Origin: Nitrososphaerota archaeon
GTDB taxonomy: Archaea > Thermoproteota > Nitrososphaeria > Nitrososphaerales > JAAOZN01
Direction: 5' to 3'
NCBI GenBank assembly: GCA_011605775.1
Contig: JAAOZN010000062.1
Coordinates: 1-42,355 of the forward strand
Length of the DNA: 42,355 nt
Part shown: positions 29,360 to 42,355 of the stretch, in pieces
Layout of the letters: each line of letters starts with the position of its first letter
How positions within the stretch are numbered: position 1 is the first letter of the stretch
Position numbers and translations under genes: made by a program
The notes under the pieces: generated by a model
The model's database searches: none
What the model was told of the DNA's origin: nothing
The model's input: only the letters and a program-made list of their open reading frames with translations

Positions 29360-29386
29360 GGGCCCGTAGCTCAGCATGGAAAAGGT
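29360..29386 (+). pseudogene. 5' fragment of a tRNA gene (acceptor and start of D arm)
   Basis: GGGCCCG, then TA, GCTC and AGCATGG, is the canonical order of a tRNA 5' acceptor strand, positions 8-9, D stem and D loop through the conserved GG. The complementary D-stem strand GAGC is missing, and no anticodon or T arm follows. It is either a scar of integration into a tRNA gene or chance, and chance seems unlikely over 20 nt. Confidence 0.5.
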
Positions 29387-29475
29387 TACGATATAACGTA
29401 GCTCTTTTATAATTATTACACCATAGCATAGTAAAGTTTGCTTAAAGAAAGTAAGCTTCTCGCTCTAAATCTCTC

Positions 29476-29502
29476 TCCACTGGTTGTTTTAAATTTAGGG
29501 GG
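29476..29502 (+). promoter_or_regulatory. cdc6 promoter with possible ORB-like half element
   Basis: A TATA-like GTTTTAAATTTA (29486-29497) lies about 20 bp before the TTG start. It is flanked by TCCACTGG (29476-29483) and a run of five G (29498-29502). Archaeal origin recognition boxes combine a TCCAxxGGA dyad with a G string, but spacing here is longer than usual. The 183-bp gap 29331-29513 is otherwise AT-rich, with a small hairpin GCTTA/TAAGC at 29440-29456. Confidence 0.35.
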
Positions 29503-29513
29503 TTGGTGTTCAG

Positions 29514-30698
29514 TTGAGTTTGATCTTTAAGGATAGGGAGAAGCTTACGCCTAGGTATATACCCTCTACCCTACCTCATCGGGAGGAGCAGATAGCTCAG
29601 CTCCATAGCTTCTTCAAGGACACTTTAATTAGACCTTCTCAGACTCATCTTCGCACGGTTCAGATCGTTGGGAGCGTGGGTTGTGGTAAGACCGCTGCGA
29701 CTAGGCTGTTTGGCGATCGCTTTCAGGAGGAGGCTAAGCGCCTCAAAATCGACCTCAACCACATATACGTCAACCTGAAGCTGCACGGGCGTAGTAGAGT
29801 ACTCCTCTACAGGTATCTGGTGCAGCAAGCGGCTCCAGAAGCATACTCAGCAAGCCTTAGCGCTGAAGAGCTCATCTACCAGCTCGTAAAGTACCTTAGG
29901 GAGAGAAACCGCTACCTTCTAATCACGTTGGATGAAATAGACTACTTCATCAAGCACAGTAGGGAGCCAGACGTCATCTACGACCTCACGAGGCTTGAGG
30001 AGGTCTCTGAGCCAGGCAAGCCCTGCAACGTCATAGGCGTAGTATTCACAGCAAGAAGCAGAGAGTTTCATAAGATGTTGGATGAAGCAGCACTCAGCAC
30101 ACTAGGAAGAATACCCATAGAGTTCAAGCCATACAACTCCAAGCAGATACTAGACATACTGGATCATAGGGTTAGGGATGCTTTTCAACCACGAGCCCTA
30201 TCGAGCGACGTTCTAGAATATGTAGCCGACATAACCGCTAAGCCGCCTGTCAACGGGGATATGAGATACGCCCTAGACCTACTACTATACTCAGGAACCC
30301 TAGCGGAGCACGAGGGCGCTGAAGCAATCACAGCCGAGCACATAAGAAGGGTCTTGAACGCAACAACACCATCCATAACAGAAGAAGACATAGCAAACCT
30401 ACCACCAAGAGAGAAGCTCGTCTTGCTAGGTGTGGTGAGGTCTTTGAGAGCGAGCGGCAGACCATACACATCACTCAAAGAAATCAGACTTTCAACAGGA
30501 GTCGTCTGGGAGGAATACAAGCTCAAACCGATGAGCGTAGATGAGATAGAGGAGTGCGTAGAAGACCTACACGACAGAGGGATCGTAGAAATCAAATCGC
30601 TAACCTCAATAGGCATAAGCGGCGTACCAACAGAAGCGCTAGACAGATTCCTAGACACACTCATCGAAAGAATAAAGGCTGGTGTAGATGGAGGATAA
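29514..30698 (+). CDS. cdc6: Orc1/Cdc6-family replication initiator
   Basis: 394-aa AAA+ ATPase that recognises origins and loads MCM. Walker A GSVGCGKT (53-60), Walker B LITLDEID (D140/E141), sensor-1 region VFTARS, and sensor-2 GDMRYALDLL (Arg retained) are all present. The C-terminal about 110 residues form the winged-helix DNA-binding domain. It begins FKDREKLTPRYIP, the usual Orc1/Cdc6 opening. TTG start. The winged-helix gene overlaps its end by 11 bp. Whether this is the chromosome's initiator or one carried by an integrated element cannot be told. Confidence 0.92.
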   Translation: MSLIFKDREKLTPRYIPSTLPHREEQIAQLHSFFKDTLIRPSQTHLRTVQIVGSVGCGKTAATRLFGDRFQEEAKRLKIDLNHIYVNLKLHGRSRVLLYRYLVQQAAPEAYSASLSAEELIYQLVKYLRERNRYLLITLDEIDYFIKHSREPDVIYDLTRLEEVSEPGKPCNVIGVVFTARSREFHKMLDEAALSTLGRIPIEFKPYNSKQILDILDHRVRDAFQPRALSSDVLEYVADITAKPPVNGDMRYALDLLLYSGTLAEHEGAEAITAEHIRRVLNATTPSITEEDIANLPPREKLVLLGVVRSLRASGRPYTSLKEIRLSTGVVWEEYKLKPMSVDEIEECVEDLHDRGIVEIKSLTSIGISGVPTEALDRFLDTLIERIKAGVDGG

Positions 30699-30981
30699 GA
30701 GGAGAAGGGTCGAAGAAGAACTTGTTGAAGCGCTTGGAAGCGAAGGAAAGATCAGAACCATAATAACCCTAGCGGAAAAACCAAACCAACTACTCACAGC
30801 CTATGCCGTAGCGAAGAGAACAGGCCTAAGAAGACAGGACGCAGACAAGATACTCAAGAAGCTACTCCAACTAGGCTGGGTGAAGCAGCACACCTACGGT
30901 GTCAAAAAGTACCAGATCAACATAGATAAGGACGAAGTTAAGAAGCTGACAGAGTTCCTCAGAGCCATCGAAGCGATCTAA
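30688..30981 (+). CDS. Small winged-helix DNA-binding protein
   Basis: 97 aa. A basic N-terminal helix (EDKRRRVEEELVEAL) is followed by a winged helix-turn-helix: TAYAVAKRTGLRRQDADKILKKLLQLGW (about 41-69), with wing VKQHTYGVKKYQI. Its start overlaps the end of cdc6 by 11 bp, so the two are translationally coupled; it may regulate cdc6 or act beside it at the origin. Family not identified. Confidence 0.75.
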   Translation: MEDKRRRVEEELVEALGSEGKIRTIITLAEKPNQLLTAYAVAKRTGLRRQDADKILKKLLQLGWVKQHTYGVKKYQINIDKDEVKKLTEFLRAIEAI

Positions 30982-31084
30982 CCGAATCGTAAAACATCAA
31001 CCAACACTCACCCATAGCACCCAGCTGTTCATTAACTAAGGTTTCCGAACACCCCCCTCCCCCTGGGCGCCAAACTCCTCCAGC

Positions 31085-31121
31085 GATTAAATAGTCTAGG
31101 CTTATCTTAATTTTCGGAGGT
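31085..31121 (+). promoter_or_regulatory. radA operon promoter and ribosome-binding site
   Basis: GATTAAATAG (31085-31094) is a TATA-like element. GGAGGT (31116-31121), 7 bp before the ATG, is the strongest Shine-Dalgarno sequence noticed in the window. The 146-bp gap 30982-31127 also carries a pyrimidine strand of 6 C, T, 5 C (31052-31063). Confidence 0.55.
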
Positions 31122-31127
31122 AAGGGT

Positions 31128-32120
31128 ATGGCTCAAAGCGTACTCGATCTGACCCTCAAGGACTTGGATGGTGTTGGACCAGCTACAGAGAAGAAGCTGC
31201 GTGAAGCAGGAGTAGAGTCCATAATAGATCTGGCTGCAGCCCTCCCAGAGGAGGTGGCTCAGATCATAGGTGGTTCGAGGGAGAGCGCTTGCGCGCTCAT
31301 CTACGTGGCACAGACCGCTTTGATGAAGAGCGGGTTGCTTGAGAAGGAGTTCATCAGGGCGTCTGAGGTCTTCGATAGAAGGAAAGCCCTGATGAGGTGC
31401 ACAACTGGCTCTAAGAATCTGGATGAGCTTCTGAAGGGCGGTGTTGAGACCCAGGCGATAACAGAGCTGTGGGGTGAGTATGGGAGCGGTAAGACCCAGA
31501 TCTGCCACACGCTCTGCATAACCTGCCAGCTACCGTTGGAGAAAGGCGGTTTGGGTGGATCTGCCCTCTACATAGATACGGAGTCAACCTTCAGACCTGA
31601 GAGACTCTATCAGATCGCTGAAGCGAGGGGTCTGAACCCACAGGAAGCCCTCAACAACGTGGTCTTCTGCAGAGTATATAACAGCAGCCACCTAGAGCTC
31701 GTGGTTAAGAGCCTAGGTAGGCACATAGAGAAGGATAACATAAGGCTTCTAGTGGTTGACAGCGTCATCAGCCTATATAGGGCGGAGTTCTCTGGCAGAG
31801 GGAGTTTAGCTGAGAGGCAGCAGAGGCTTAACAGCCTACTACACAGGCTACTCAGAATAGCTGAAATATACAACGTAGCTGTGGTGGTTACGAACCAGGT
31901 TCAGGCGCAGCCAGACACCTTCTTCGGCGACCCCAATAAGCCAGCTGGAGGGCACGTGATAGCCCACGCAAGCACCTACAGAATCTACCTGAAGAAGGCT
32001 GGGCAGGAAAGGAGGGCGATCTTAGTCGACAGCCCCTACCACCCACACTCAGAAGCAACATTCACCATCAACGAGAAGGGTGTAGTAGACCCAGAGCCGA
32101 AGAAGAAGACTTCAGACTAA
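31128..32120 (+). CDS. radA: RadA recombinase
   Basis: 330-aa archaeal RecA/Rad51 that forms the strand-exchange filament on ssDNA. An N-terminal helix-hairpin-helix domain (LDGVGPATEKKLREAG, about 13-28) precedes the ATPase core. The core has a polymerisation motif region near FIRASEVFDRR, Walker A GEYGSGKT (116-123), Walker B LLVVDS (Asp211), and L1/L2 loop region SGRGSLAERQQ and NQVQAQPD. All key residues are intact. It is the first gene of a six-gene operon ending in polB. Confidence 0.95.
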   Translation: MAQSVLDLTLKDLDGVGPATEKKLREAGVESIIDLAAALPEEVAQIIGGSRESACALIYVAQTALMKSGLLEKEFIRASEVFDRRKALMRCTTGSKNLDELLKGGVETQAITELWGEYGSGKTQICHTLCITCQLPLEKGGLGGSALYIDTESTFRPERLYQIAEARGLNPQEALNNVVFCRVYNSSHLELVVKSLGRHIEKDNIRLLVVDSVISLYRAEFSGRGSLAERQQRLNSLLHRLLRIAEIYNVAVVVTNQVQAQPDTFFGDPNKPAGGHVIAHASTYRIYLKKAGQERRAILVDSPYHPHSEATFTINEKGVVDPEPKKKTSD

Positions 32121-32136
32121 CCGACGGTGATGCGAG

Positions 32137-32295
32137 ATGCTAACTGAAGCGATCAAGGCGTGCAAATGGTGTGGGAGGAGACTCGGCAGCGAACACTACT
32201 ATAGGTGCTTGGTTTGCGGTGAAACATACTGCTGGATACATATGGCTAGGCACCGCCAACACACCTTAACACAAGCATCTGGCTTTAGTAGGTGA
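32137..32295 (+). CDS. 52-aa zinc-finger microprotein
   Basis: Reads MLTEAIKACKWCGRRLG and continues to a stop overlapping the next start by 4 bp (GTGA). Zinc ligands are CKWC (9-12), CLVC (24-27), then CWIH (32-35) with later His39 and His42, a treble-clef or B-box-like set. It lies 16 bp after radA inside the operon. Too short to classify; likely a DNA- or protein-binding partner of RadA/RPA, by position only. Confidence 0.65.
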   Translation: MLTEAIKACKWCGRRLGSEHYYRCLVCGETYCWIHMARHRQHTLTQASGFSR

Positions 32296-34019
32296 GGCTT
32301 TTGAGCCTGCTGCTCGACGGCAGATATATCCCACCTGGTCCTGAAGCGATACCTCAGCCGAAGCCCTATGAAGCTAGGAGGCTACTAACATTAGCTGAGC
32401 TCACACCAGGCAGATACGTGGACACTGTTGCGAGGCTGGTGAACTTTAGGGTCTTGGAGAAGCGTGACCAACTTGGTGTGAAGATGGTATACCAAGGCGT
32501 CTTGGAGGATAGAACCTTTAGGGTGCCTTTCATCTGCCACAAACCAACGCCAGTATTCGAAAGAGGAGGCGTCTTTAAGATCAGAGGAGCGTATGTACAC
32601 GAGTTCCAGGATAGATCGATCCTACTCGTCATCACAGAATACAGCGGAGTCCAACCCCTCTCTGATGTGGATGCGAGGGAGTACGTCTGGAGACCTAAGA
32701 TTGGGAGCATACCTAGGCCGATCTACGACGTAACACTTGAAGGCGTTGTAACCAACATCTTCAGCGCATCTGGTTTGGTTAAGAGGTGTAATAGATGTGG
32801 GAGAGTCATCTACGACACCTGCCCAAACGGTTGCGGGGATGGTTGGAGTTGGGGTCTAAGGGTATCAGCTATGCTCTACGACGGCTCAGGCTCCATCAAA
32901 ACCGTCTTCACCCGACACATAGCTGCTGAGTTGATCGGGAGGAGCTTAAGCGAGATCCTACTACTAGCCAATGCGTCGCAGCAATCTGTAGAAGGCTTTG
33001 ATCTCATCACCTACCACCTAACCCTACCAGATAAGGTTGATGTTGTTGAGGCGGTTGTTGAGAACGCATCTAGCCTCCGCAGCAGAAACCTCATCATGGC
33101 GACTGAGGGCTTCAACCTCGCCTACTTCCCCTCAACCAGAGATCTACCTAGCAGGGTATTGGAAACTTCTACAAGGAGGCTAGACCCAAAGGATCCACAC
33201 GACTCGAAGATTCTGAGGAGGCTGATCGAGAGGGCTCTTTGGCTTAGGATAGAGCAGACGACTGGTAGACCTATGATCCACGGCATACATCTACTAGATG
33301 AGCCGACACCACTCTACGGCTGTGAGCGGGCTAAGCTATACCTCGGCTTCTCAACAAGAGTAAACCTAGCAGATAGGACAATTGTGGTTGAGGCATCGCC
33401 TCAAGCCCTAGTTAGGGAGAGCGTATGGGAGTACGTTAGGTGGAGGAGGGGTAGAGGGGCTTCGGCTGAGGCGATAGAGAGGGCTCTGAAGACATTCAGA
33501 AGCTGCGTCCACCTCGCACCACTAGGCCAGATGGGGAGGATCGAAGGCGTCATCTACAGGAAGGCTTGTGAGCAGCAGGTCTCGGAGAGCGACCGAAGAA
33601 ACCTCGTCGAGTTCTGGAGAGAAGTTTACAGTTTAGAAGTTGAGCCAGATGAAACACCACTACTCAAGGTGAATCTGATGAACTCTGAGCAGCTCTTCAC
33701 ATACCCACCATCAACAGCTTTCTTCGAAAGCGGTGCGATCTACATAAACCACAGCGCGAATAAGTTTATCGAAGCCAAGAAGGCATCGCTTACAAATCGA
33801 GTTAGAGCTGTGCTACGAAATGTGCTTCAAGACCTACGCCTAGGCGACAACACACTACCGCTTACGCAAGGAGAGGGGAGGGGTGTCGATGCGCAGAAGC
33901 TGGTACTCAGCAACATCCACCAGAAGATCCTAAGTAAGAGGGTTAGAGCTAGAGGACAGATAATCCAGCTCCCAGACCAGCTATGCTTCATACCGAAGCA
34001 GATTCTGCGGGTGAGCTGA
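32292..34019 (+). CDS. RPA-like single-stranded DNA-binding protein with zinc-finger OB fold
   Basis: 575 aa. An N-terminal OB-like domain (about 35-125, with RYVDTVARLVNFRVLE and FKIRGAYVHEF) is followed by a second OB fold. Its inserted zinc finger (C166-x2-C169-x7-C177-x3-C181) and adjacent GWSWGLRVSAMLYDGSGSIKTVF match the RPA70/RPA41-type zinc OB domain. Residues about 280-575 are an extension that I cannot assign, mixed helix/strand and not a further clear OB fold. GTG start coupled to the zinc microprotein. Probably coats ssDNA for RadA and PolB encoded in the same operon. Confidence 0.72.
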   Translation: MRLLSLLLDGRYIPPGPEAIPQPKPYEARRLLTLAELTPGRYVDTVARLVNFRVLEKRDQLGVKMVYQGVLEDRTFRVPFICHKPTPVFERGGVFKIRGAYVHEFQDRSILLVITEYSGVQPLSDVDAREYVWRPKIGSIPRPIYDVTLEGVVTNIFSASGLVKRCNRCGRVIYDTCPNGCGDGWSWGLRVSAMLYDGSGSIKTVFTRHIAAELIGRSLSEILLLANASQQSVEGFDLITYHLTLPDKVDVVEAVVENASSLRSRNLIMATEGFNLAYFPSTRDLPSRVLETSTRRLDPKDPHDSKILRRLIERALWLRIEQTTGRPMIHGIHLLDEPTPLYGCERAKLYLGFSTRVNLADRTIVVEASPQALVRESVWEYVRWRRGRGASAEAIERALKTFRSCVHLAPLGQMGRIEGVIYRKACEQQVSESDRRNLVEFWREVYSLEVEPDETPLLKVNLMNSEQLFTYPPSTAFFESGAIYINHSANKFIEAKKASLTNRVRAVLRNVLQDLRLGDNTLPLTQGEGRGVDAQKLVLSNIHQKILSKRVRARGQIIQLPDQLCFIPKQILRVS

Positions 34020-34020
34020 G

Positions 34021-34146
34021 TTGAGTAGGAGAAGAAGCTACTCTGATGAAGAGCTCTCAGACCTCCTTAAGGAGATTTACGTAGCCATCGAGCGCCTCGA
34101 CAGATTAGGGGAGGAGCTGAAGTGCCTCTTAACCCCGTCGAAATGA
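34021..34146 (+). CDS. 41-aa acidic helical microprotein
   Basis: Starts TTG one base after the RPA-like stop and overlaps the next gene start by 25 bp. The reading is SRRRSYSDEELSDLLKEIY and then an amphipathic helix with one Cys (35). It has a charged helical pattern typical of small coiled-coil adaptors. It may be real, since it exactly bridges two genes, but short length makes this tentative. Confidence 0.45.
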   Translation: MSRRRSYSDEELSDLLKEIYVAIERLDRLGEELKCLLTPSK

Positions 34147-35165
34147 GGAGGGCTGCCGAGGCACTCTACGAAGAGAAGCTGAAGATGAGCACAGGCAACC
34201 CAGATCTAGATAGCTTGATAGGTGGTGTTGAGGAGGGTCTCTTCTACCTATTCTACGGAGAGCAGCAGATCTTAGACACACTAATCCACAGGCTCATCGT
34301 GAACTGCGTTCTACCAAGGGATAGGGGAGGTTTTCAGGCGAAAGGCGTCTACTTCAACAACACAGACTACAACACAGGTAAAACCATACTCGACCCAACG
34401 CTACTAGGAGGATTGGCGAAGCGGGTAGGCTTAGAGCCTAAGGATGTGTTCAGAAGCATATACACAGCCGCAGCATACAACGAGGAGAGGCAGCTCATAG
34501 TAGCCAACCAAGTAGCCGAGCTCATGGAGAGGGACCCTGGGATCAAGCTGCTAGCCGTACACAACATCACCAGATTCTTTGCGGACTCAAAGAGGGTTGA
34601 AGAGACAAGGAGGGTTCTGAAGCAGGTGATAAGCATACTATGGAGCACAGCAAAGAAGAGAGGAATAGCTTTAGTGGCTACCGCAGACGCCTTAAACACT
34701 GGTAGAGGCTTCATACCACGACCACAAGGCGGGAACTACCTACGCCACGCAGCAGGCATCATCGTATACATAAAGAGACTTGAGGATGCTGCTAAAGCGT
34801 ACCTCATCAAACACCCCTGCAGAAAGACACCCGACTCAATCACACTATACCTTGCTGAGGGAGGTGGTGATCTAGTGGGTAGGATAACACCCTCGTTCCG
34901 CCAACGCTACGAAGAAGCCATCAGCGAGCTTAAGACGAGCTACCAAAATGCGCTAATCGACCTAGAGCATAGGGAAGCGTTCAACCTCCTCCTCAAAGAA
35001 GCCTGGTGTGTTGAACAAGCAGCCATGGGCAACTCAAACCTACCAACGGTAGTGGATGCGCTCAACATAACAGCAAACATACACAACAGAAAGCTCATAG
35101 AGGCTCTGAGGAGGAGGCTCGAAGAGCAAGAGAAGGCGATACAAGAGCTCCAGAGAAGGGTTTGA
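34122..35165 (+). CDS. RadA/RecA-fold paralogue with degenerate ATPase site
   Basis: 347 aa. TGNPDLDSLIGGVEEGLFYLFYGEQ (about 24-48) aligns with the RadA/RadB/KaiC core start. The P-loop that should follow (GxxGxGKT) reads GEQQILDT (46-53), so Gly and Lys are lost. The Walker B strand LLAVHNI has Asn instead of Asp. ATP hydrolysis is therefore unlikely. The C-terminus (about 318-347) is a coiled coil. GTG start inside the microprotein gene; polB follows 17 bp later. It is structurally comparable to a mediator or to the RecA-like ImuA subunit, as an inference. Confidence 0.75.
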   Translation: MPLNPVEMRRAAEALYEEKLKMSTGNPDLDSLIGGVEEGLFYLFYGEQQILDTLIHRLIVNCVLPRDRGGFQAKGVYFNNTDYNTGKTILDPTLLGGLAKRVGLEPKDVFRSIYTAAAYNEERQLIVANQVAELMERDPGIKLLAVHNITRFFADSKRVEETRRVLKQVISILWSTAKKRGIALVATADALNTGRGFIPRPQGGNYLRHAAGIIVYIKRLEDAAKAYLIKHPCRKTPDSITLYLAEGGGDLVGRITPSFRQRYEEAISELKTSYQNALIDLEHREAFNLLLKEAWCVEQAAMGNSNLPTVVDALNITANIHNRKLIEALRRRLEEQEKAIQELQRRV

Positions 35166-35182
35166 AGCCCTATCTAACCTAG

Positions 35183-37447
35183 TTGGCGGAGCGAGGCCAT
35201 CAGAGAATGGGTAGCTTGGTAGGCTGGATACTCGACACATACATAGATGGCGATGAAGCAGCGATCTGGCTCAAAACAGTTGATAACAGAGCAATCAAGC
35301 TGAGAGACAAATACCAACCAACCTTCTACATAAAACCAAAGGGAAGGGAAGAAGGGGAGAGGCTCAGCACACTACTTCAGCAACACCTAAGCGTATTAGA
35401 TGTGAAGTGGGTTGAAAAGTACACCAATCTAAGAAACGGAGAGAAGAAGAGCCTTCTAAAGATAACTGTAGATAAGGCATCGAGCTATAAGAGGCTTCTG
35501 ATGATCTTGGAGTCCTCGGAGTATGTGGAGGAGCTCTTTAACACCGACCTACTGCACGTCCAACAATACCTCTTCCAGAATCTTGGTGTTGAGCCGACCA
35601 GTAAGGTGGAGGTAGAATACGATGAGCAAAGGCAACTAATCGGCGTTTCGAGGATCGATGACGATAGGGAGATCAAGCCGCCTCCCTTCACAACTGTATA
35701 CTTCAACCTACACACAAATGAACCAACCCCAGATCCAAGTAAGCACCCTATCCGATTGGCTGAGGTGAGGTTTGAGGGTGAGGAGGATGTCATCGAAGGC
35801 TCAGAAGAACACATCATCGAAGCGCTCTCAGAGTTAATCAGATCGAGAGACCCAGACCTCCTAGTCTCCCCTAACTGCGACGACTTCACCTTCCCATACC
35901 TATACAACCGCAGCAAGATCCTGGGTTTGAACCCTCAGCTAGGTAGGGAGAGAGTGGATGTTAACACAATACGGAAGCCGCTGCCATACTGGGTTAGGGG
36001 TAGGGTTGCGCTAGACTACAACCAATTCGGCTGCACATTCGACGAGTGGGGTGTAGCTGGCTTGGTCGAGAGGGCTAGGTTCAGCTTCCTACCACCAGGC
36101 ATCGCCAGTAGATGGACCAGCAACAGAATCAATGACAGCAGATGCTGCTACGAGCTGCTGAAGAGGGGTTATGTGATACCGAAGAACAGAGGACACTTCG
36201 AGTACATCAGACCGATGAGCGTTGTGGTTGAGAGGGATAAGGGTGGCATAATCATACCACCTAAGATAGGCGTGGTGCATGAGAACGTTGCTGAGCTCGA
36301 CTACGAATCACAGTACCCAAACATATTGGTGAAGTGGTGCATCAGCTACGAAACAGTAACACCAGAAGGCGTTAAGATGAGGGAGGATGCCCTACTACCC
36401 TACATCACAAAACGCTACCTGGAGAGGAGACTCTACTTCAAGAGGCTGAGAAACAACTACCCAAAGGGCAGCTGCGAGTGGGTTTGGTGTGAGCAGCGCC
36501 AAGCTGCTCTAAAGCTTATTCTCGTCACCCTCTACGGAACCTCTGGATGCTGCTGGAACAGATTCGGCAACGTACTGGCCTTCGAAGAAATCAACAAGAA
36601 GTCGAGAGAAATCATGATAAAGACGAAGGATATCGCTCAGCAGAGGGGTTTCGAAGTAGTTTACGCTGACTGCGACAGCATCTTTGTTAAGAAGAGGGGG
36701 GCAAAAAAAGAGGACTACGAGAACCTAGCTAAGGAGATCAGCGAGCAGATAGGGTTGCCTATGGCGCTAGACCACCACTACAAGTTCCTCATCCTCCTAC
36801 CCCTAGAAGCAGACCCATCAGCCATCATGGAGGCCCAAAAACACTACTTCGGCATACTATACGACGGCGAAATAGTAGCCAGAGGAATCGAGCTAAGAAG
36901 ACACGACACACCAAAATTCATAAAAGATTTCCAGACCAAGCTGATCAAAACCCTATTCAGCTGCGAAAACGCGGAGCAGGTACAGACAGAAGGCTACGAT
37001 AAAGCCCTTCAAGTCGTAACTGAAGCGATTGACGATCTTATGAAGGGGAAGATTCGGCAAGAAGATCTGGTGGTGTCGAAGACCCTAAAGAAACCCGTAA
37101 CACAGTACAGAAGCATCCTCCCACACGTCTCAGCAGCAATACAGCTCGCAAGCAGAGGCAGAAGCATCAAACCAGAAGAAAAAGTCAACTTCATCTACAC
37201 AGACGCAGACCACCACAACCCATTATGCAGAGTAATAGCATACGATCTAATAAACGGCCAGATAAACATAGACGAAGAAAAGTACAGAGATCTCATACTA
37301 GACGCGGCAGAAACAATACTATCAACACTAAACTTCAACAGACAGATTTACAACCTACCAAAACCAGATAAAAGATGGTGGAAAGAACTCATAGAAGAGA
37401 GGAGAAGAGAAACAGAACTCGAAGCGGAAACAGAGAAACAAACCTGA
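35183..37447 (+). CDS. polB: Family B DNA polymerase with inactivated 3'-5' exonuclease
   Basis: 754 aa (TTG at 35183, or ATG at 35207 giving MGSLVGWILDTY). Polymerase motif A is LDYESQYPNI (Asp373), motif C YADCDS (Asp496, Asp498): all metal aspartates are present. Motif B is KLILVTLYG (444-452), with Val where Asn is usual. The exonuclease motifs are destroyed: Exo I reads YFNLHT (173-178) instead of xxDxE, Exo II NCDDFTFPYL (231-240) has Thr for Asp. Exo III retains Asp318 but lacks the Tyr. So it is a polymerase without proofreading, like translesion B-family enzymes; subfamily is not determined. Last gene of the RadA operon. Confidence 0.9.
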   Translation: MAERGHQRMGSLVGWILDTYIDGDEAAIWLKTVDNRAIKLRDKYQPTFYIKPKGREEGERLSTLLQQHLSVLDVKWVEKYTNLRNGEKKSLLKITVDKASSYKRLLMILESSEYVEELFNTDLLHVQQYLFQNLGVEPTSKVEVEYDEQRQLIGVSRIDDDREIKPPPFTTVYFNLHTNEPTPDPSKHPIRLAEVRFEGEEDVIEGSEEHIIEALSELIRSRDPDLLVSPNCDDFTFPYLYNRSKILGLNPQLGRERVDVNTIRKPLPYWVRGRVALDYNQFGCTFDEWGVAGLVERARFSFLPPGIASRWTSNRINDSRCCYELLKRGYVIPKNRGHFEYIRPMSVVVERDKGGIIIPPKIGVVHENVAELDYESQYPNILVKWCISYETVTPEGVKMREDALLPYITKRYLERRLYFKRLRNNYPKGSCEWVWCEQRQAALKLILVTLYGTSGCCWNRFGNVLAFEEINKKSREIMIKTKDIAQQRGFEVVYADCDSIFVKKRGAKKEDYENLAKEISEQIGLPMALDHHYKFLILLPLEADPSAIMEAQKHYFGILYDGEIVARGIELRRHDTPKFIKDFQTKLIKTLFSCENAEQVQTEGYDKALQVVTEAIDDLMKGKIRQEDLVVSKTLKKPVTQYRSILPHVSAAIQLASRGRSIKPEEKVNFIYTDADHHNPLCRVIAYDLINGQINIDEEKYRDLILDAAETILSTLNFNRQIYNLPKPDKRWWKELIEERRRETELEAETEKQT

Positions 37448-37568
37448 CAGCGATACAATCAATCTCTTGAGCTGCAAGCCTATTCCTGACCTTTTCAAAG
37501 ACCCGTAGAGTTAAGTGTGGTGGATTTTGGTCGTTTTAGAAGAAATTTCTAGGGTGCTCGACTAGTCT

Positions 37569-38030
37569 TTACGGGGCTTCGCTCTCCTTTGACTCAGCAC
37601 TCATACGCTCAAACGCTTCTACGAGTTTATCTACTAGCTGCTCCTCCTCTCTATACGCTTCCTCTAGGAGCTGCGCTAGTAGAGATCTAATTAAGGCCCC
37701 TTGCACATTAACGATCTTCTCATACTTTTTAGCTGGTTTGCTGATGAGGTAGTGGAAGAACTCGTGCCTTAGCGTTTTAAGCGCATCTCTTTCATTCGAA
37801 GAATATACGTAGATGGTGTTATCCTTCACCTCACCCTCCTTCTCATATTCATCGTTGGGAATCCATTTAACCGAATGGATTTCATAACCGGTCTTAAAGA
37901 TGCCCTTCATCCTTACAAGCTCTTTATCTAAAGCGGACTGCACATCTACGCCAATTCTACTATTATGACGTGTAGTAGAAGCAACGTTGTGATCAGCGTT
38001 CAGACGGTTCTTCTTGAGGGTTTGAGCCAT
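37569..38030 (-). CDS. Small zincin metallopeptidase-like protein
   Basis: 153 aa. HEFFH at residues 89-93 is a HExxH zinc motif on a helix (LKTLRHEFFHYLI), preceded by the edge strand DNTIYVYS, as in minimal gluzincin folds of mobile elements (ImmA/IrrE-like or SprT-like proteins). A Glu-rich helix with EEAYREEEQLVDKL supplies the likely third ligand Glu. Last gene of the minus-strand operon, 3 bp after the Toprim gene. The 121 bp between it and the convergent polB hold only AT-rich, T-run sequence. Confidence 0.65.
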   Translation of the reverse strand: MAQTLKKNRLNADHNVASTTRHNSRIGVDVQSALDKELVRMKGIFKTGYEIHSVKWIPNDEYEKEGEVKDNTIYVYSSNERDALKTLRHEFFHYLISKPAKKYEKIVNVQGALIRSLLAQLLEEAYREEEQLVDKLVEAFERMSAESKESEAP

Positions 38031-38033
38031 CGG

Positions 38034-38888
38034 TTACGCTGCTCCCAGCTTTTTCTTCAGCTCCTCTCTAGCCTTCCTCAGGGTCTCTCTGTTTCTTTCG
38101 ATCACTTCGCTCCAGACTTTGGGGTCTATTTCGGCTTCAACAGCCTCTCTCACGATCCTCTGTAGCTCAGTTGGTTCTAGTGCATCGAGCTCCCAGCATT
38201 GATCACCGTATCTCGCTACGTATTCTTCGGCTCTTGGGTCAGCCTTCTTCGTTGGGTTTGGGAGAAGGTTGTAGCTTAGGACTTGTCCATAGGTTAGGGC
38301 GATTCTCTTAAGTGTGAAGTCTACGCCGAAGTATTCTACAGCCTCCTCCGTGAATCTTTCGATATCTATCCCACTTGGATCGTGGTCTCCGAGGTATAGG
38401 ACCTTCGCCTCGCAGTCGCTATGGAATATGTCTAGGTTGTCGTAGATGAAGGTCCAGGAAGAATACCCTCTCGATACGGCTAGTGGTATGTAGAAGCCGC
38501 CTACAGCATCGTATATTAACTCGGCTAACGCGTCCTTTTCGAGCCAAACAACGATTCTTTTGCCCATATCTTCCCACGGGTCTTCACCTAAGCCCTCTGT
38601 AGCCCTCTCAACCAACTCATCTACGTTAACTGTTTGCCCACTAGGTTTGAACCACCACCTGTATCTTACGTGATCAGCTAGGGAGTCCCAGGGGATAAGC
38701 CCACCCATCCTGGCTTTAACGAGTCTTTCGCTGAGTGTCTTGTAGCAGGCTTTGGTGTTCTGGTAGCCTCCGACCAGCTCAGATGCGAGCCTGTAATGGA
38801 CTTGTCTGAGTGTGGGTCTTATGCCCTGGCTGTTGTATGCTCTTATGAGGCTACAGGCTCTGTTTACGACGCTCTCCCAGTCAACCAA
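38034..38888 (-). CDS. Spo11/TopoVI-A-like Toprim protein ('Mini-A' type)
   Basis: 284 aa. The N-terminal part TLRQVHYRLASELVG with Tyr32 resembles the 5Y-CAP domain that carries the cleaving tyrosine of TopoVI-A/Spo11. The Toprim domain has its Glu in VVWLEKDAL (Glu117) and its DxD in YLGDHDPSGIDI (168-170). Thus both halves of a type IIB cleavage site seem present, but no TopoVI-B ATPase gene occurs in the window. Stand-alone homologues from viruses and plasmids are known as Mini-A. The function is unproven; cleavage at a replication origin or recombination start is possible. It overlaps the primase gene end by 8 bp. Confidence 0.72.
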   Translation of the reverse strand: MVDWESVVNRACSLIRAYNSQGIRPTLRQVHYRLASELVGGYQNTKACYKTLSERLVKARMGGLIPWDSLADHVRYRWWFKPSGQTVNVDELVERATEGLGEDPWEDMGKRIVVWLEKDALAELIYDAVGGFYIPLAVSRGYSSWTFIYDNLDIFHSDCEAKVLYLGDHDPSGIDIERFTEEAVEYFGVDFTLKRIALTYGQVLSYNLLPNPTKKADPRAEEYVARYGDQCWELDALEPTELQRIVREAVEAEIDPKVWSEVIERNRETLRKAREELKKKLGAA

Positions 38889-39900
38889 CTGTTAGCACCT
38901 CCTTCAGGTTCACGCCTAGGTGGCTTACTATCTCTGAGAGCTTCTTAAATGAAATTATCGGCACATCCTCCCCGCGTATCAGCTTTCTCTCTATGTAGCG
39001 TGGCTGATATGTTGCTAGGTATCTCGCTCTCTGATCCACCCTCCTAAGCTTGTCACATCTGTCAAGCCAGTCTTCGATTATCTTCGTCGCTTCCTCGGGC
39101 TCAATATCTCTCACTTTAACGAGGTATGGCGCTATCGCTAGCCCTATGCATATCTTCCTGCCGTCTGCGATAGGTGTGTTTAGTAGCTTCTCGACCCACT
39201 CGTACCCCCTAACCCTCTCTGCCTTTAGTGGTATTCTTCTCGCTTCGATGGCTCTGCTAACCTTTGAAATTTTGAAGTCGCCGTAGAGTAGGGTTAGGTC
39301 GGCTCTATTACCGCACCAATCTTGAATAACCTCAACTCTTCGAGAGATGAGCCCGCCTTCTACGATCTTGGAGTTTAGGGTGCAGGGTATCCTAAAGAGC
39401 CTGTTTAAGTCGCCTAGGATCTGCTTGTCGCAGAGCCCGTATGATAGGCGCTCCTGAATCCACCTCAAATACTCCTTAGCCTCCCCTACGCCTCCAGGCA
39501 GATCTCTAGGTTCGCAGGGTAGTAGGATGTGGAAGCCCTTGCCGCCAGAGAACTGTATAAGCGGCTTCACATCCAGCAGCCTCTTGACGAGCCTAGCTGA
39601 CTTAAGAGCATACTTCTTAGCAAGATCTAAATCAGATTCGAGATCTATGTCTATGAAGACTGTGCTTATGATGCCTCGGCGCTGCTCCACCTCACTATGC
39701 GTAGATAGGAAGCAGTTGTGCAACAAAGAGCTCTCCAAACACCCGATAAGCTCCTCCTTAGACGATACCTTGAACCTACCGTGCTTGATCTCGTCATTCA
39801 GCATGACATAGCTCCCTAGCCCAAACATACCATCTCTAGGGAGTCTGAAGGCTTCGGGTAGAAGTTGAAGAACGTAGTCGGCTATTTCAGCCGAGTTCAT
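38881..39900 (-). CDS. Archaeo-eukaryotic primase (PriS-like AEP), plasmid type
   Basis: 339 aa. The AEP motifs are in order: TVFIDIDLES (Asp84, Asp86, metal ligands), SGGKGFHI (118-125), and a third motif zone DLNRLFRIPCTLNSK (164-178). The C-terminal part from about 215 is helical (WVEKLLNTPIADGRKICIGL...EATKIIEDWL), as in plasmid/virus primases. Probably makes RNA/DNA primers for the element's polymerase. It starts 5 bp after the helicase-remnant stop and shares the operon with the Toprim protein. It may not be the chromosomal PriS, which is usually paired with PriL. Confidence 0.85.
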   Translation of the reverse strand: MNSAEIADYVLQLLPEAFRLPRDGMFGLGSYVMLNDEIKHGRFKVSSKEELIGCLESSLLHNCFLSTHSEVEQRRGIISTVFIDIDLESDLDLAKKYALKSARLVKRLLDVKPLIQFSGGKGFHILLPCEPRDLPGGVGEAKEYLRWIQERLSYGLCDKQILGDLNRLFRIPCTLNSKIVEGGLISRRVEVIQDWCGNRADLTLLYGDFKISKVSRAIEARRIPLKAERVRGYEWVEKLLNTPIADGRKICIGLAIAPYLVKVRDIEPEEATKIIEDWLDRCDKLRRVDQRARYLATYQPRYIERKLIRGEDVPIISFKKLSEIVSHLGVNLKEVLTVG

Positions 39901-39905
39901 ACCGC

Positions 39906-41258
39906 CTACACCCTTGGAGAGAAGTCTTTACAGGTCTCGGCGAAGCGGGCGGTCGGCATTACAGCGGCCCACTCTGGGTGCTTGAGGCAGGATGCGGACG
40001 AGTAATTGATGCAGTTGCCGCAGCACGCTTCTATGAGATCAAACTCAGATGTCTCCGCACAAGCTCTACACAAATACTCTATTCGCTTGAGCTTCGGGTG
40101 CCAGTAGCCCGACACACCATCTTTAGATCCGCATCTTGAGCATTCTGCTGAACCGCTGAACCCGGCTGAACCACCTGCTTCAGCAGACGATGAGGGTGAA
40201 TCTTTCCCCTTTAGCTGATCTGGGCTCGATTCTAGCCGATTGGTGGGCTCTGCTAAACGATCTGCTAAACCAATATTGTTAGCGAGCTTAGTTAGATCAA
40301 CTAATCGGCCGTCTATTGGGTCTACGACGAACCTCCAACCGTCCAGTGTAGGCTGGTCTTGTTCAGCAGATCCGTTAGGCTCACCTGCTTTCCACTCCTT
40401 CTCATGCTCAATAACCTTTGCCCAATCAATGCGCTGAATCACGTTTTCATCAGGGTTCGGCAGTTCAGCAGATCTTACACTTCGGCAATATAGCTTCCTG
40501 TTGGAGCCCTCTGGTTTGAATTCATACGCATATCCTAGGTTTACTAGGTCTGCAAGGTATTGTCTGGCGGTCGATTGCGCTACCCTAAGTTTCGCAGCAA
40601 CCTCCTCGCTGGTAAGCCCGCCTCCGTTGTAGGGTGGAATCTTATCGAAGCAGCGCTGAAGCCGCCCTGGCAGCTGGTAGAGCGACGATATCAAAACACC
40701 CCAGCCAACCCTCAGCGCTATGTAGAGGTCTGCTGCTGTTGCACAGATCAGGTTACCACGCCTAAAACGCTGATATTGGTGTAAGTAAGCGACGACTCTT
40801 ATTAGATCGAGGAGGAAGTCGAGTTTAGACCGATCCCATGGCGCCAGTTTGAGCAGCTCTTCAGCGTAAGGAATCACTACGTCGTAGTCTTCAAGCAAAT
40901 CCACGGCTGCGCGAAAGACTTTTAACTCTTCTTCGTCGGCTGGCTTGATCTTTCCAGCGGCAAATTCAACCTTGCGTTGGTTGATGCTCTTCGTAAGCTC
41001 CTCGTCTTCGTCCACACTCAGCAACCAGCATCTGCGGAGGGTTTCAGGCATAGGTAGCCTGCCAGCCGACGTTGTCACAACAGTCTTAGCGGGTATTTCC
41101 TCCACTTTCGTCTTCCACTCGCCCGTAGCTGGATCTCTTACAGCAACCTCGAATGCGTACCCGCCATCTTCCTTCATGATAAGCCTAAGGTCCAGTTCGG
41201 GTTGTGGGCGCCACTCGACAATAAACAGCACCTTGTAATGCTGATCACCGTACCGCAT
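39906..41258 (-). CDS. N-terminally truncated phage/plasmid helicase with HTH and zinc modules
   Basis: 450 aa. It begins abruptly at the Walker B-like strand KVLFIVEW (about 8-16) of a helicase family found in plasmids and phages. It then follows that family: RDPATGEWKTKVEEIPAKTVVTTSAG, LLSVDEDEELTKSINQRK, VVIPYAEELLKLAP, and LIRVVAYLHQYQR. The Walker A half and any primase domain that should precede are missing. A winged HTH (LTSEEVAAKLRVAQSTARQYLADLVNLGY, about 213-241) and a Ser/Gly-rich linker follow, then a Cys-rich end with CSRCG, CRAC, CCGNC and C-x6-C-type pairs (about 376-450). ATPase activity is unlikely; DNA binding is plausible. Confidence 0.7.
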   Translation of the reverse strand: MRYGDQHYKVLFIVEWRPQPELDLRLIMKEDGGYAFEVAVRDPATGEWKTKVEEIPAKTVVTTSAGRLPMPETLRRCWLLSVDEDEELTKSINQRKVEFAAGKIKPADEEELKVFRAAVDLLEDYDVVIPYAEELLKLAPWDRSKLDFLLDLIRVVAYLHQYQRFRRGNLICATAADLYIALRVGWGVLISSLYQLPGRLQRCFDKIPPYNGGGLTSEEVAAKLRVAQSTARQYLADLVNLGYAYEFKPEGSNRKLYCRSVRSAELPNPDENVIQRIDWAKVIEHEKEWKAGEPNGSAEQDQPTLDGWRFVVDPIDGRLVDLTKLANNIGLADRLAEPTNRLESSPDQLKGKDSPSSSAEAGGSAGFSGSAECSRCGSKDGVSGYWHPKLKRIEYLCRACAETSEFDLIEACCGNCINYSSASCLKHPEWAAVMPTARFAETCKDFSPRV

Positions 41259-41322
41259 CCCACCCCCAGTTAGGTAGGAGCGAGACGAAGAAGCGCCGAA
41301 GCAAAAAGGATCTGAGATAAAG

Positions 41323-41421
41323 ATGGATACCGAAGCCGTTGTAGTCCCAAGCCCTGAGCAAAGGGCTGCTAGTCTTCTAGCGGTTCAAACCCCGCCGCAT
41401 CAGAGTGGACAAGGAGTTTAA
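41323..41421 (+). CDS. Possible 32-aa leader peptide over a hairpin-rich stretch
   Basis: ATG at 41323 opens a 32-codon frame with ordinary codon use (MDTEAVVVPSPEQRAASLL...), ending inside the next gene by 17 bp. The same bases fold into three adjacent stem-loops, listed separately, so a coding and an RNA reading compete. Evidence for either is weak. Confidence 0.25.
   Translation: MDTEAVVVPSPEQRAASLLAVQTPPHQSGQGV
41350..41395. repeat. Three adjacent stem-loops, tRNA-like T-arm at the end
   Basis: AGCCCT/AGGGCT (41350-41367, 6-nt loop), GCTAG/CTAGC (41368-41381, 4-nt loop), and GCGG/CCGC (41380-41395) around TTCAAACC. The last differs by one missing G from a perfect archaeal T arm. It may be a degraded tRNA or a structured element in the gap between the truncated helicase and the next plus-strand gene. 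Confidence 0.4.
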
Positions 41422-41788
41422 GCCAGCGACCGTCTTCGAAATCGAGAGGGAAGCCTGGTACCACAACGTGAGGGAGAGCCTAGGTGAAGCCGTTTACCAC
41501 GAGGCTGTGAGGAGGGTTCAGCTGACAGACGAGGATCGAGCCGACTACAGGAAGGCGGTCAGCAAGCTTCTCAGCGTAGTGACATATATCGATGAGGATA
41601 CGGCTAAGCAGCTTCTCTGGACAGAGGCTGAGACGGCCATAGCTTACGGATTAGCTGAAGAGTGGAAGAAGAGGGCGAAGACCTACGAGGAAGCTTGGAA
41701 CAGCCTATCAGCAACTCTACCACAGATCCTATGTCCGAAGTGTCAGGTTGCACTCGTCACATACTACATGACGAGGGGTGCTCATTAG
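41405..41788 (+). CDS. Hypothetical protein with C-terminal CxxC
   Basis: 127 aa, GTG start. It is helical and rich in Glu/Ala (ESLGEAVYHEAVRRVQLTDEDRADYRKA), with one CPKC pair (109-112) near the end that might bind zinc with partners elsewhere. I do not recognise it. It stands outside the convergent operons and is transcribed away from the helicase remnant. The following 152 bp (41789-41940) hold no supportable gene. Confidence 0.55.
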   Translation: MDKEFKPATVFEIEREAWYHNVRESLGEAVYHEAVRRVQLTDEDRADYRKAVSKLLSVVTYIDEDTAKQLLWTEAETAIAYGLAEEWKKRAKTYEEAWNSLSATLPQILCPKCQVALVTYYMTRGAH

Positions 41789-41940
41789 CTATGCTAGCAA
41801 GTCACAGCAACCCCAATATTCCAATTATGGCGTGATACACTTTCTACCAGAGAAGACAGTAAACACAGCGTTGTGTTCACAGAGCAGCTCCTCAGAAACG
41901 CGCTTAACTAGATTGTTTTTAGTGGCTTACGCTTGTATCT

Positions 41941-42355
41941 TTAGGTTGCTAAGCCGATGGCGCTTAGCACCTCGTTGATCGCCTCTGGGCTAACCTTGCG
42001 CGCAAGTAGAGCGTTTACAACTCGATTGATTGCTTCACTTCCATCTAAACCTTTCCCAAACCAAGCTTCAACAAAATCTTTCGTGAACCGTAGCTCCACC
42101 AATATCTTCTCCTTCTCACGCTTAGCAGCCTCTATCTCGCTTAAGATCTTAACATATTCGCTTTTAGCATCCTCTACCTCGCTTCTAACCTTCTTCAGCT
42201 CTTGGATGTCTTTAAGCGCTGAAACAAACTCGTCAGGACTCATTCCTTCATCCCTCATTCTGTTATAGAGAGCTAGGTAGGACCAGACTTCACCTCGAAT
42301 CTTTGAGTAAAGATCATATAGCTCGTAGATGCCCTTTAAGCGCCAATAATCCTTA
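41941..42355 (-). CDS. Hypothetical coiled-coil protein, 5' end beyond the window
   Basis: Reading leftward from the window edge, the frame is open to 42355 without a start requirement (KDYWRLKGIYELYDLYSKI... then the ATG at 42258), so the gene is cut by the window end. The visible part is a coiled coil (KSEYVKILSEIEAAKREKEKIL) followed by a small helical domain (VEAWFGKGLDGSEAINRVVNALLARKVSPEAI). The family is not recognised. Such proteins often accompany plasmid partition or HTH genes, but nothing here proves that. Confidence 0.6.
   Translation of the reverse strand, partial: KDYWRLKGIYELYDLYSKIRGEVWSYLALYNRMRDEGMSPDEFVSALKDIQELKKVRSEVEDAKSEYVKILSEIEAAKREKEKILVELRFTKDFVEAWFGKGLDGSEAINRVVNALLARKVSPEAINEVLSAIGLAT

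Follow-up and report, generated by a model that had tools for sequence, protein, structure and literature searches.

The stretch analysed here, referred to as the window, is the entire 42,355-nucleotide contig JAAOZN010000062.1 (C62) of a Nitrososphaerota archaeon, the genome of which (G000) comprises 1.62 Mb in 107 contigs; G-, L- and C-numbers denote compared genomes, loci and contigs respectively. Chromosomal housekeeping genes, named by eye and including those for ribosomal proteins, the proteasome, enolase and RNA polymerase subunits (RNA polymerase N being confirmed with Pfam), fill positions 1 to ~29,350. Downstream of these lies an operon encoding a B-family DNA polymerase, two proteins of the RadA family and a protein related to the single-stranded DNA (ssDNA) binding protein RPA. 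The operon contains six open reading frames (ORFs), all on the forward strand, with successive gaps of +16, −4, +1, −25 and +17 bp, and is preceded by a TATA-like sequence (TTAAATAG) at 31087 and a GGAGGT Shine-Dalgarno sequence at 31116, with the first ATG at 31128. The sequence-only reading of this DNA had proposed a six-gene operon with this spacing behind a TATA/Shine-Dalgarno pair, and both the ORFs and the promoter elements were recovered as proposed. The membership of the unit required adjustment; all six ORFs are present, but those of 52 aa and 41 aa are weak members, and the unit extends 5′ of radA to include a cdc6 gene and a winged-helix (wHTH) gene at 29514–30981. The features of the locus are listed in Table 1.

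Table 1. Features of the polymerase operon and of the surrounding integrated element, in window coordinates.
Feature	Position	Strand	Evidence
RadA, catalytically intact by motifs, distinct from host RadA	31128..32120	+	Rad51 4.7e-95; Walker A GEYGSGKT
52-aa zinc-binding ORF (predicted), weak member	32137..32295	+	Cys in CxxC pairs
575-aa protein, RPA-like (OB folds and Zn ribbon, ~1–230) with Argonaute N-L1-PAZ-L2 lobe (~231–575)	32292..34019	+	SSB/PAZ profiles, Foldseek
41-aa helical ORF, weak member	34021..34146	+	Similarity by eye
Inactive RadA (iRadA), RadA fold without N-terminal domain or Walker A	34122..34874	+	Rad51 1.2e-16; no GxxxxGK[ST]
PPB2, 96 aa, in-frame fusion to iRadA, own GTG start and GGGAGGTGG Shine-Dalgarno	34875..35165	+	VGRITPSFR... 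motif
PolB2-family polymerase with an intact polymerase site and a dead exonuclease	35183..37447	+	DNA_pol_B 1.8e-36; motif C YADCDS
C-rich tract ACCCCCCTCCCCCT, 5′ of TATA, conserved candidate operator	31051..31064	+	Conserved position
Second Orc1/Cdc6 (Orc1-2-like), candidate damage-response regulator	29514..30698	+	TIGR02928 2.3e-65
Winged-helix protein, 97 aa, paired with Cdc6	30688..30981	+	MarR_2 4.6e-6
attL, 5′ 21 nt of tRNA gene (GGGCCCGTAGCTCAGCATGGA), left edge of integrated element	29360..29380	+	Homology break vs G026
Phage-type DNA topoisomerase subunit, element gene outside module	38034..38888	-	phrog_6247 1.8e-60
Primase with PriX-like C-terminal domain, element gene	38881..39900	-	NF033412 PriX 1.7e-13
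450-aa wHTH protein, Cys-rich C-terminal parts, beside primase	39906..41258	-	

The polymerase had been described from the sequence as exonuclease-dead, and the alignment bears this out; the exonuclease residues are replaced (Exo I D/E to N/H, Exo II D to T, with the Exo III Tyr lost), while the polymerase aspartates D373, D496 and D498 are invariant among nine homologues. In a phylogenetic tree the protein grouped with canonical PolB2 (100/100), apart from the PolB1 of the host, and fell inside a clade with an intact DxD motif (100/99). A simple pattern search detected DxD in 13 of the 14 members of this clade and in none of the canonical Nitrososphaeria PolB2s that make up the sister group; DxD-intact PolB2 of TACK archaea have already been noted in published work on the family (PMC4104785, PMC11791011). 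A B-family polymerase in the records of LE1-type Leptospira phages (KF114879.1 and KX656785.1) aligns with 94% of the window PolB2 at 24% identity and is, by its sequence, a phage-borne PolB2 relative. Immediately 3′ of PolB2 in genome G194 lies a truncated ORF (L092 6333–6602, forward strand), DUF72-like by eye, in agreement with the published enrichment of DUF72 around polB2.

The ORF preceding the polymerase had been read as a degenerate RadA. Walker A is indeed absent, but the ORF is a fusion of iRadA with PPB2, the small helical protein that accompanies PolB2 and iRadA in the PolB2 mutasome operon (PMC4104785, Makarova et al. 2014; PMC11791011, Timinskas et al. 2025). The GTG codon of PPB2 follows a strong Shine-Dalgarno sequence at 34859 and is in frame 0 relative to iRadA, and the VGRITPSFR... 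sequence that it opens corresponds to stand-alone ORFs beginning MGRITPSFR... in L042, L044, L089, L090, L092 and L093. The N-terminus of PPB2 is characterized by MGRT with conserved Arg3 and Arg9 (PMC4104785, PMC11791011), and this hallmark is present, in an MGRT-like form, in the window copy. PPB2 is present as a fusion to iRadA and is probably also made as a separate product; iRadA-PPB2 fusion with an internal start is a published variant (PMC11791011, PMC4104785). The 41-aa ORF was also considered as a candidate for PPB2 and was ruled out, as it is the C-terminal part of the iRadA ORF that encodes PPB2.

The first gene of the operon encodes the RadA with intact catalytic motifs, which was placed in a separate clade from the chromosomal RadA of the same genome (100/100). 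Two canonical Nitrososphaeria PolB2 operons (L049 5949–11116 and L050 5923–11057) open with a short ORF that by eye resembles ribbon-helix-helix proteins, followed by full-length RadA, iRadA, PPB2, a second copy of PPB2 and PolB2; the presence of RadA within the operon is, therefore, not confined to the type found in the window. The 52-aa zinc ORF had no homologue at 1e-3 in relatives and was detected in the window alone. The 41-aa ORF resembles, by eye, a 61-aa ORF between RadA and iRadA in G027 (L036), and no counterpart was found in the other module loci.

The 575-aa product of the third gene had been called RPA-like, and this holds for its N-terminal half; the second half corresponds to the N-PAZ lobe of Argonaute. 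Residues 33–223 matched the archaeal RPA/SSB model PRK07218 (4e-25), the structural match of this half was the RPA-type OB fold 2k75, and the zinc ribbon is evident from the cysteine pattern CNRCG...CPNGCG. Pfam PAZ was found in all nine homologues (best 4.6e-6). AlphaFold models were generated for the full protein (pLDDT 69) and for residues 231–575 alone (pLDDT 79, pTM 0.65), and the Argonaute of Kurthia massiliensis was the top Protein Data Bank match of both in Foldseek (6e-10 and 3e-10 respectively, probability 1.00). PIWI and human AGO proteins followed, with TM-scores (query) of up to 0.55; the alignments spanned 323–400 columns across the C-terminal half, and the best 50 matches listed were all Argonaute/PIWI. 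The full-length model additionally matched the RPA filament 8oej (1.5e-8). From the PAZ signal and the structural matches to both Argonaute and RPA, the protein combines RPA-like domains with an N-L1-PAZ-L2 lobe. MID and PIWI are not present in it, and a search for a PIWI gene in 11 module genomes identified none, while the control search recovered that of M. jannaschii; the protein is thus not an Argonaute. Long prokaryotic Argonautes share with residues 231–575 the predicted fold of this lobe and the PAZ sequence signal; the 575-aa protein differs from them in the lack of MID and PIWI, the fusion to RPA OB and zinc domains and a context of DNA damage tolerance rather than defence. No description of an RPA-Argonaute-lobe fusion was found in the open-access papers searched, and the fusion appears to be new.

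To assess the distribution of the module, the polymerase served as query against 151 genomes of the order and the 575-aa protein against 400. The polymerase search returned a close group with 37–62% identity and a distant, canonical group at ~30%. In all loci of the close group whose flanks were long enough, as well as in many distant loci, iRadA adjoined PolB. The 575-aa protein was detected in 12 of the 400 genomes, and where contigs allow, its gene sits between RadA and iRadA-PPB2-PolB2 (G000, G044, G142, G178, G192, G194 and G206); G127, G231 and G175 contain partial loci. The order RadA, RPA/Argonaute-lobe, iRadA, PPB2, PolB2 is kept in other families of the order, and as it recurs in independent genomes the arrangement is not due to chance. 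The two outcomes named beforehand as counting against an operon of this kind, an unconserved gene order and a polymerase mostly found alone, were both examined, and neither examination refuted it.

A phylum-wide search added a single locus, in G646, with a frameshifted RPA/Argonaute-lobe gene followed by iRadA, PPB2 and PolB2, lacking RadA and neighboured by a divergent wHTH gene and a Cdc6 gene whose product is 42% identical to the window Cdc6. A scan of the genome collection returned metagenome-assembled genomes of Nitrososphaerales only. Decayed RadA-RPA/Argonaute-lobe pairs with frameshifts and stops were observed in metagenome-assembled genomes G196, G235 and G206 (L095, L096, L097 and L099), suggesting repeated gain and loss.

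The Cdc6-wHTH pair upstream of the operon recurs in G027 (62% and 42% identity), G044 and G142 and beside the operon of G646, the wHTH protein being 35–45% identical to the ORF following Cdc6-2 in G027, G044 and G142. The pair was not found in G012 and G026, two sister genomes of the same genus that are without the module. In G044 the contig with the Cdc6-wHTH pair and that with the module overlap by 127 identical bases, and the order Cdc6-wHTH-RadA-RPA/Argonaute-lobe-iRadA:PPB2-PolB2 is thus the same as in the window; the G044 module lies among chromosomal genes. The enrichment of orc1/cdc6 near polB2 has been published (PMC4104785, PMC11791011), and in Saccharolobus the regulator of the damage response is Orc1-2 (PMC9738581).

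Between the wHTH gene and the TATA-like sequence is a C-rich tract, which reads ACCCCCCTCCCCC in the window (31051) and likewise in G044 and G027. Each of the nine module loci that could be tested has such a tract 60–100 bp ahead of its first gene; it ranks among the best tracts per locus, with a combined p of ~1e-11 that is optimistic as the motif was chosen post hoc. Ten of 11 control promoters were without the tract, the exception being the canonical operon of G055; the canonical operons of G133 and G085 have it at −59. The idea that the tract marks PolB2 operons in general was rejected, because only some of the canonical operons (G055, G133 and G085) possess it.

The operon lies on an integrated element. 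Homology to the sister genome G026 (G026:C91) breaks off at position 29380, part-way through a tRNA gene of which G026 has an intact copy. The 21-bp start of this gene has one other copy in G000, within a complete tRNA at C72:2878–2972; a tyrosine integrase gene (412 aa) starts 50 bp from this tRNA. As the tRNA is split at 29380 and the integrase adjoins the intact tRNA, 29381–42355 and C72:1–2877 are assigned to an integrated element, 15.8 kb or more in length, whose middle is unassembled and which was not seen as one continuous stretch. The att repeat, the split tRNA, the integrase at one end and the intact site in a relative are the marks of a tyrosine-integrase element at a tRNA site; integration into the 5′ part of a tRNA gene is a rare type in Thaumarchaeota (PMC6563490). 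Joining C62 and C72 through an end overlap was attempted and rejected, with no shared end and paralogous pieces on C33 and C102. These contigs carry other remnants or copies of tyrosine-integrase elements (L183 on C33, 717–2083; L184 on C102, 483–3835), among them a piece 83% identical to the window end and an integrase of 399 aa accompanied by ParB- and HNH-like ORFs.

Beyond the operon the element encodes a topoisomerase subunit, a primase and a wHTH protein. The closest matches of the topoisomerase gene in the phage collection were topoisomerase-annotated genes of phages of Pseudomonas and other bacteria (37% identity), and the gene had no Pfam match. The small, AEP-type primase has a PriX-like domain within its own polypeptide, although PriX usually forms a subunit by itself. 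A viral origin through direct relatives was rejected after IMG/VR scans, which returned no relatives of the RPA/Argonaute-lobe protein, primase, topoisomerase or integrase and a single distant match to PolB. The search for plasmid relatives of the primase was equally unproductive, giving a LigD-like match only. No RNA genes were detected in the element part of the window up to E 0.5.

The locus closely resembles the archaeal PolB2 (Dpo2) mutasome, with which it shares the exonuclease-dead PolB2, an iRadA lacking the Walker motif and the N-terminal domain, the GR..PSFR N-terminus of PPB2, the nearby orc1/cdc6 and the known variant of iRadA-PPB2 fusion. It differs in having an intact RadA and the RPA-Argonaute-lobe fusion within the operon, Cdc6-wHTH directly upstream and a polymerase of the DxD-intact clade. 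The sequence-only reading had likened the cluster to the bacterial mutasome and knew of no description of this exact set. PolB2, iRadA and PPB2 are all present, so the mutasome reading stands, but a description of this core dates from 2014 and models of it from 2025 (PMC4104785, PMC11791011); the open-access papers searched yielded no account of the larger set that includes RadA and the RPA/Argonaute-lobe fusion, and the conserved extended operon appears to be new. The architectural analogy with the Pol V mutasome (UmuC-UmuD′2-RecA) is also published (PMC11791011). Both combine an error-prone polymerase with a recombinase-family protein, whereas Pol V belongs to another polymerase family, has an unrelated small subunit and includes no SSB or Argonaute-lobe part. 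NitGar-E5, a cryptic integrated element of Nitrososphaera gargensis, likewise encodes a PolB, two small proteins and an inactivated RadA (PMC6563490), so mobility of the core was already known; an RPA-Argonaute-lobe protein is not mentioned for NitGar-E5, and the window element differs in its use of the 5′ part of a tRNA gene.

These data suggest, with a probability that we put at roughly 0.6, that the cluster is an expanded PolB2 translesion mutasome, including RadA and the RPA/Argonaute-lobe protein, carried on an integrated element. DNA damage would act on the Cdc6-2/wHTH pair, which would control the operon via the C-rich promoter tract. Where a fork has stalled or a gap is present, the RPA half of the 575-aa protein would coat ssDNA and the PAZ lobe would hold the free 3′ end, while RadA would form a filament or be loaded by the RPA/Argonaute-lobe protein. 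iRadA, with a PPB2 trimer, may then dock PolB2 to the filament or terminus, where the exonuclease-dead polymerase would extend mismatched or lesion-blocked ends without proofreading. The support for this polymerase step is homology to Dpo2, for which translesion synthesis and targeted mutagenesis have been tested (PMC7390963). Carried on the element, the module may help the element's own DNA or that of the host to survive damage. Held more tentatively, at somewhat below even odds, is the further proposal that an Argonaute 3′-end-binding lobe, slicer-less and fused to RPA, has been recruited as the ssDNA and primer-terminus subunit of a RadA-PolB2 translesion machine that also travels on mobile elements.

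Several observations weigh against this interpretation. The RPA/Argonaute-lobe gene is missing from G058, G035 and G027 of the same PolB2 clade, and the mutasome can therefore work without it. The PAZ match of the window copy (E 0.17) is under the Pfam cut-off, the AlphaFold models are of only moderate confidence (pLDDT 69 and 79), residues 186–235 of the RPA half were modelled poorly (pLDDT <50), and binding of Cdc6-2 to the C-rich tract is a guess. The weak PAZ match, together with the fact that OB-like barrels are common to many folds, also favours a conventional PolB2 mutasome whose RPA derives from the host, the likeness to Argonaute then reflecting a shared small-barrel fold only. However, the detection of PAZ in nine of nine members, with a best value of 4.6e-6, and the length of the Foldseek alignments across the C-terminal half, with nothing but Argonaute/PIWI among the best 50 matches listed, make this the least likely of the alternatives considered.

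The sequence-only reading had also suggested the surviving replisome of an integrated plasmid or virus. Location on an integrated element was confirmed, and PolB2 and its partners might copy the element DNA together with Cdc6, the PriX-type primase and the phage-type topoisomerase, all of which the element encodes, using a polymerase active site that is intact. However, the polymerase is exonuclease-dead and belongs to the PolB2 clade with PPB2 and iRadA as mutasome partners, the primase and topoisomerase form a separate unit on the opposite strand, and in G044 the same order is found among chromosomal genes with no primase or topoisomerase match nearby, so that a replication module is considered unlikely. 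A role for the RPA/Argonaute-lobe protein in defence or counter-defence, as a sensor of ssDNA 3′ ends directed at guides or invading DNA and placed in the operon solely to be co-induced, would fit the Argonaute lobe, carriage on a mobile element and the patchy distribution (12/400 genomes). It is judged equally improbable, as there is no PIWI partner in the 11 module genomes and the gene lies between RadA and iRadA-PolB2 in loci with enough flank, a slot that is conserved across families.

If the expanded mutasome reading is correct, it has consequences for both the polymerase and the Argonaute lobe. The PolB2 holoenzyme is known from models only, and the extended operon names its likely missing ssDNA partners, by which the mechanism becomes testable. 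Carriage on an integrated element parallels the mobile Pol V operons of bacteria (rumAB and mucAB). An Argonaute N-PAZ lobe fused to RPA outside a guide-directed system would be unexpected and would bear on the origin of the lobe and on the action of PAZ on DNA ends; if true, it would represent a guide-independent role in DNA repair for an Argonaute lobe.

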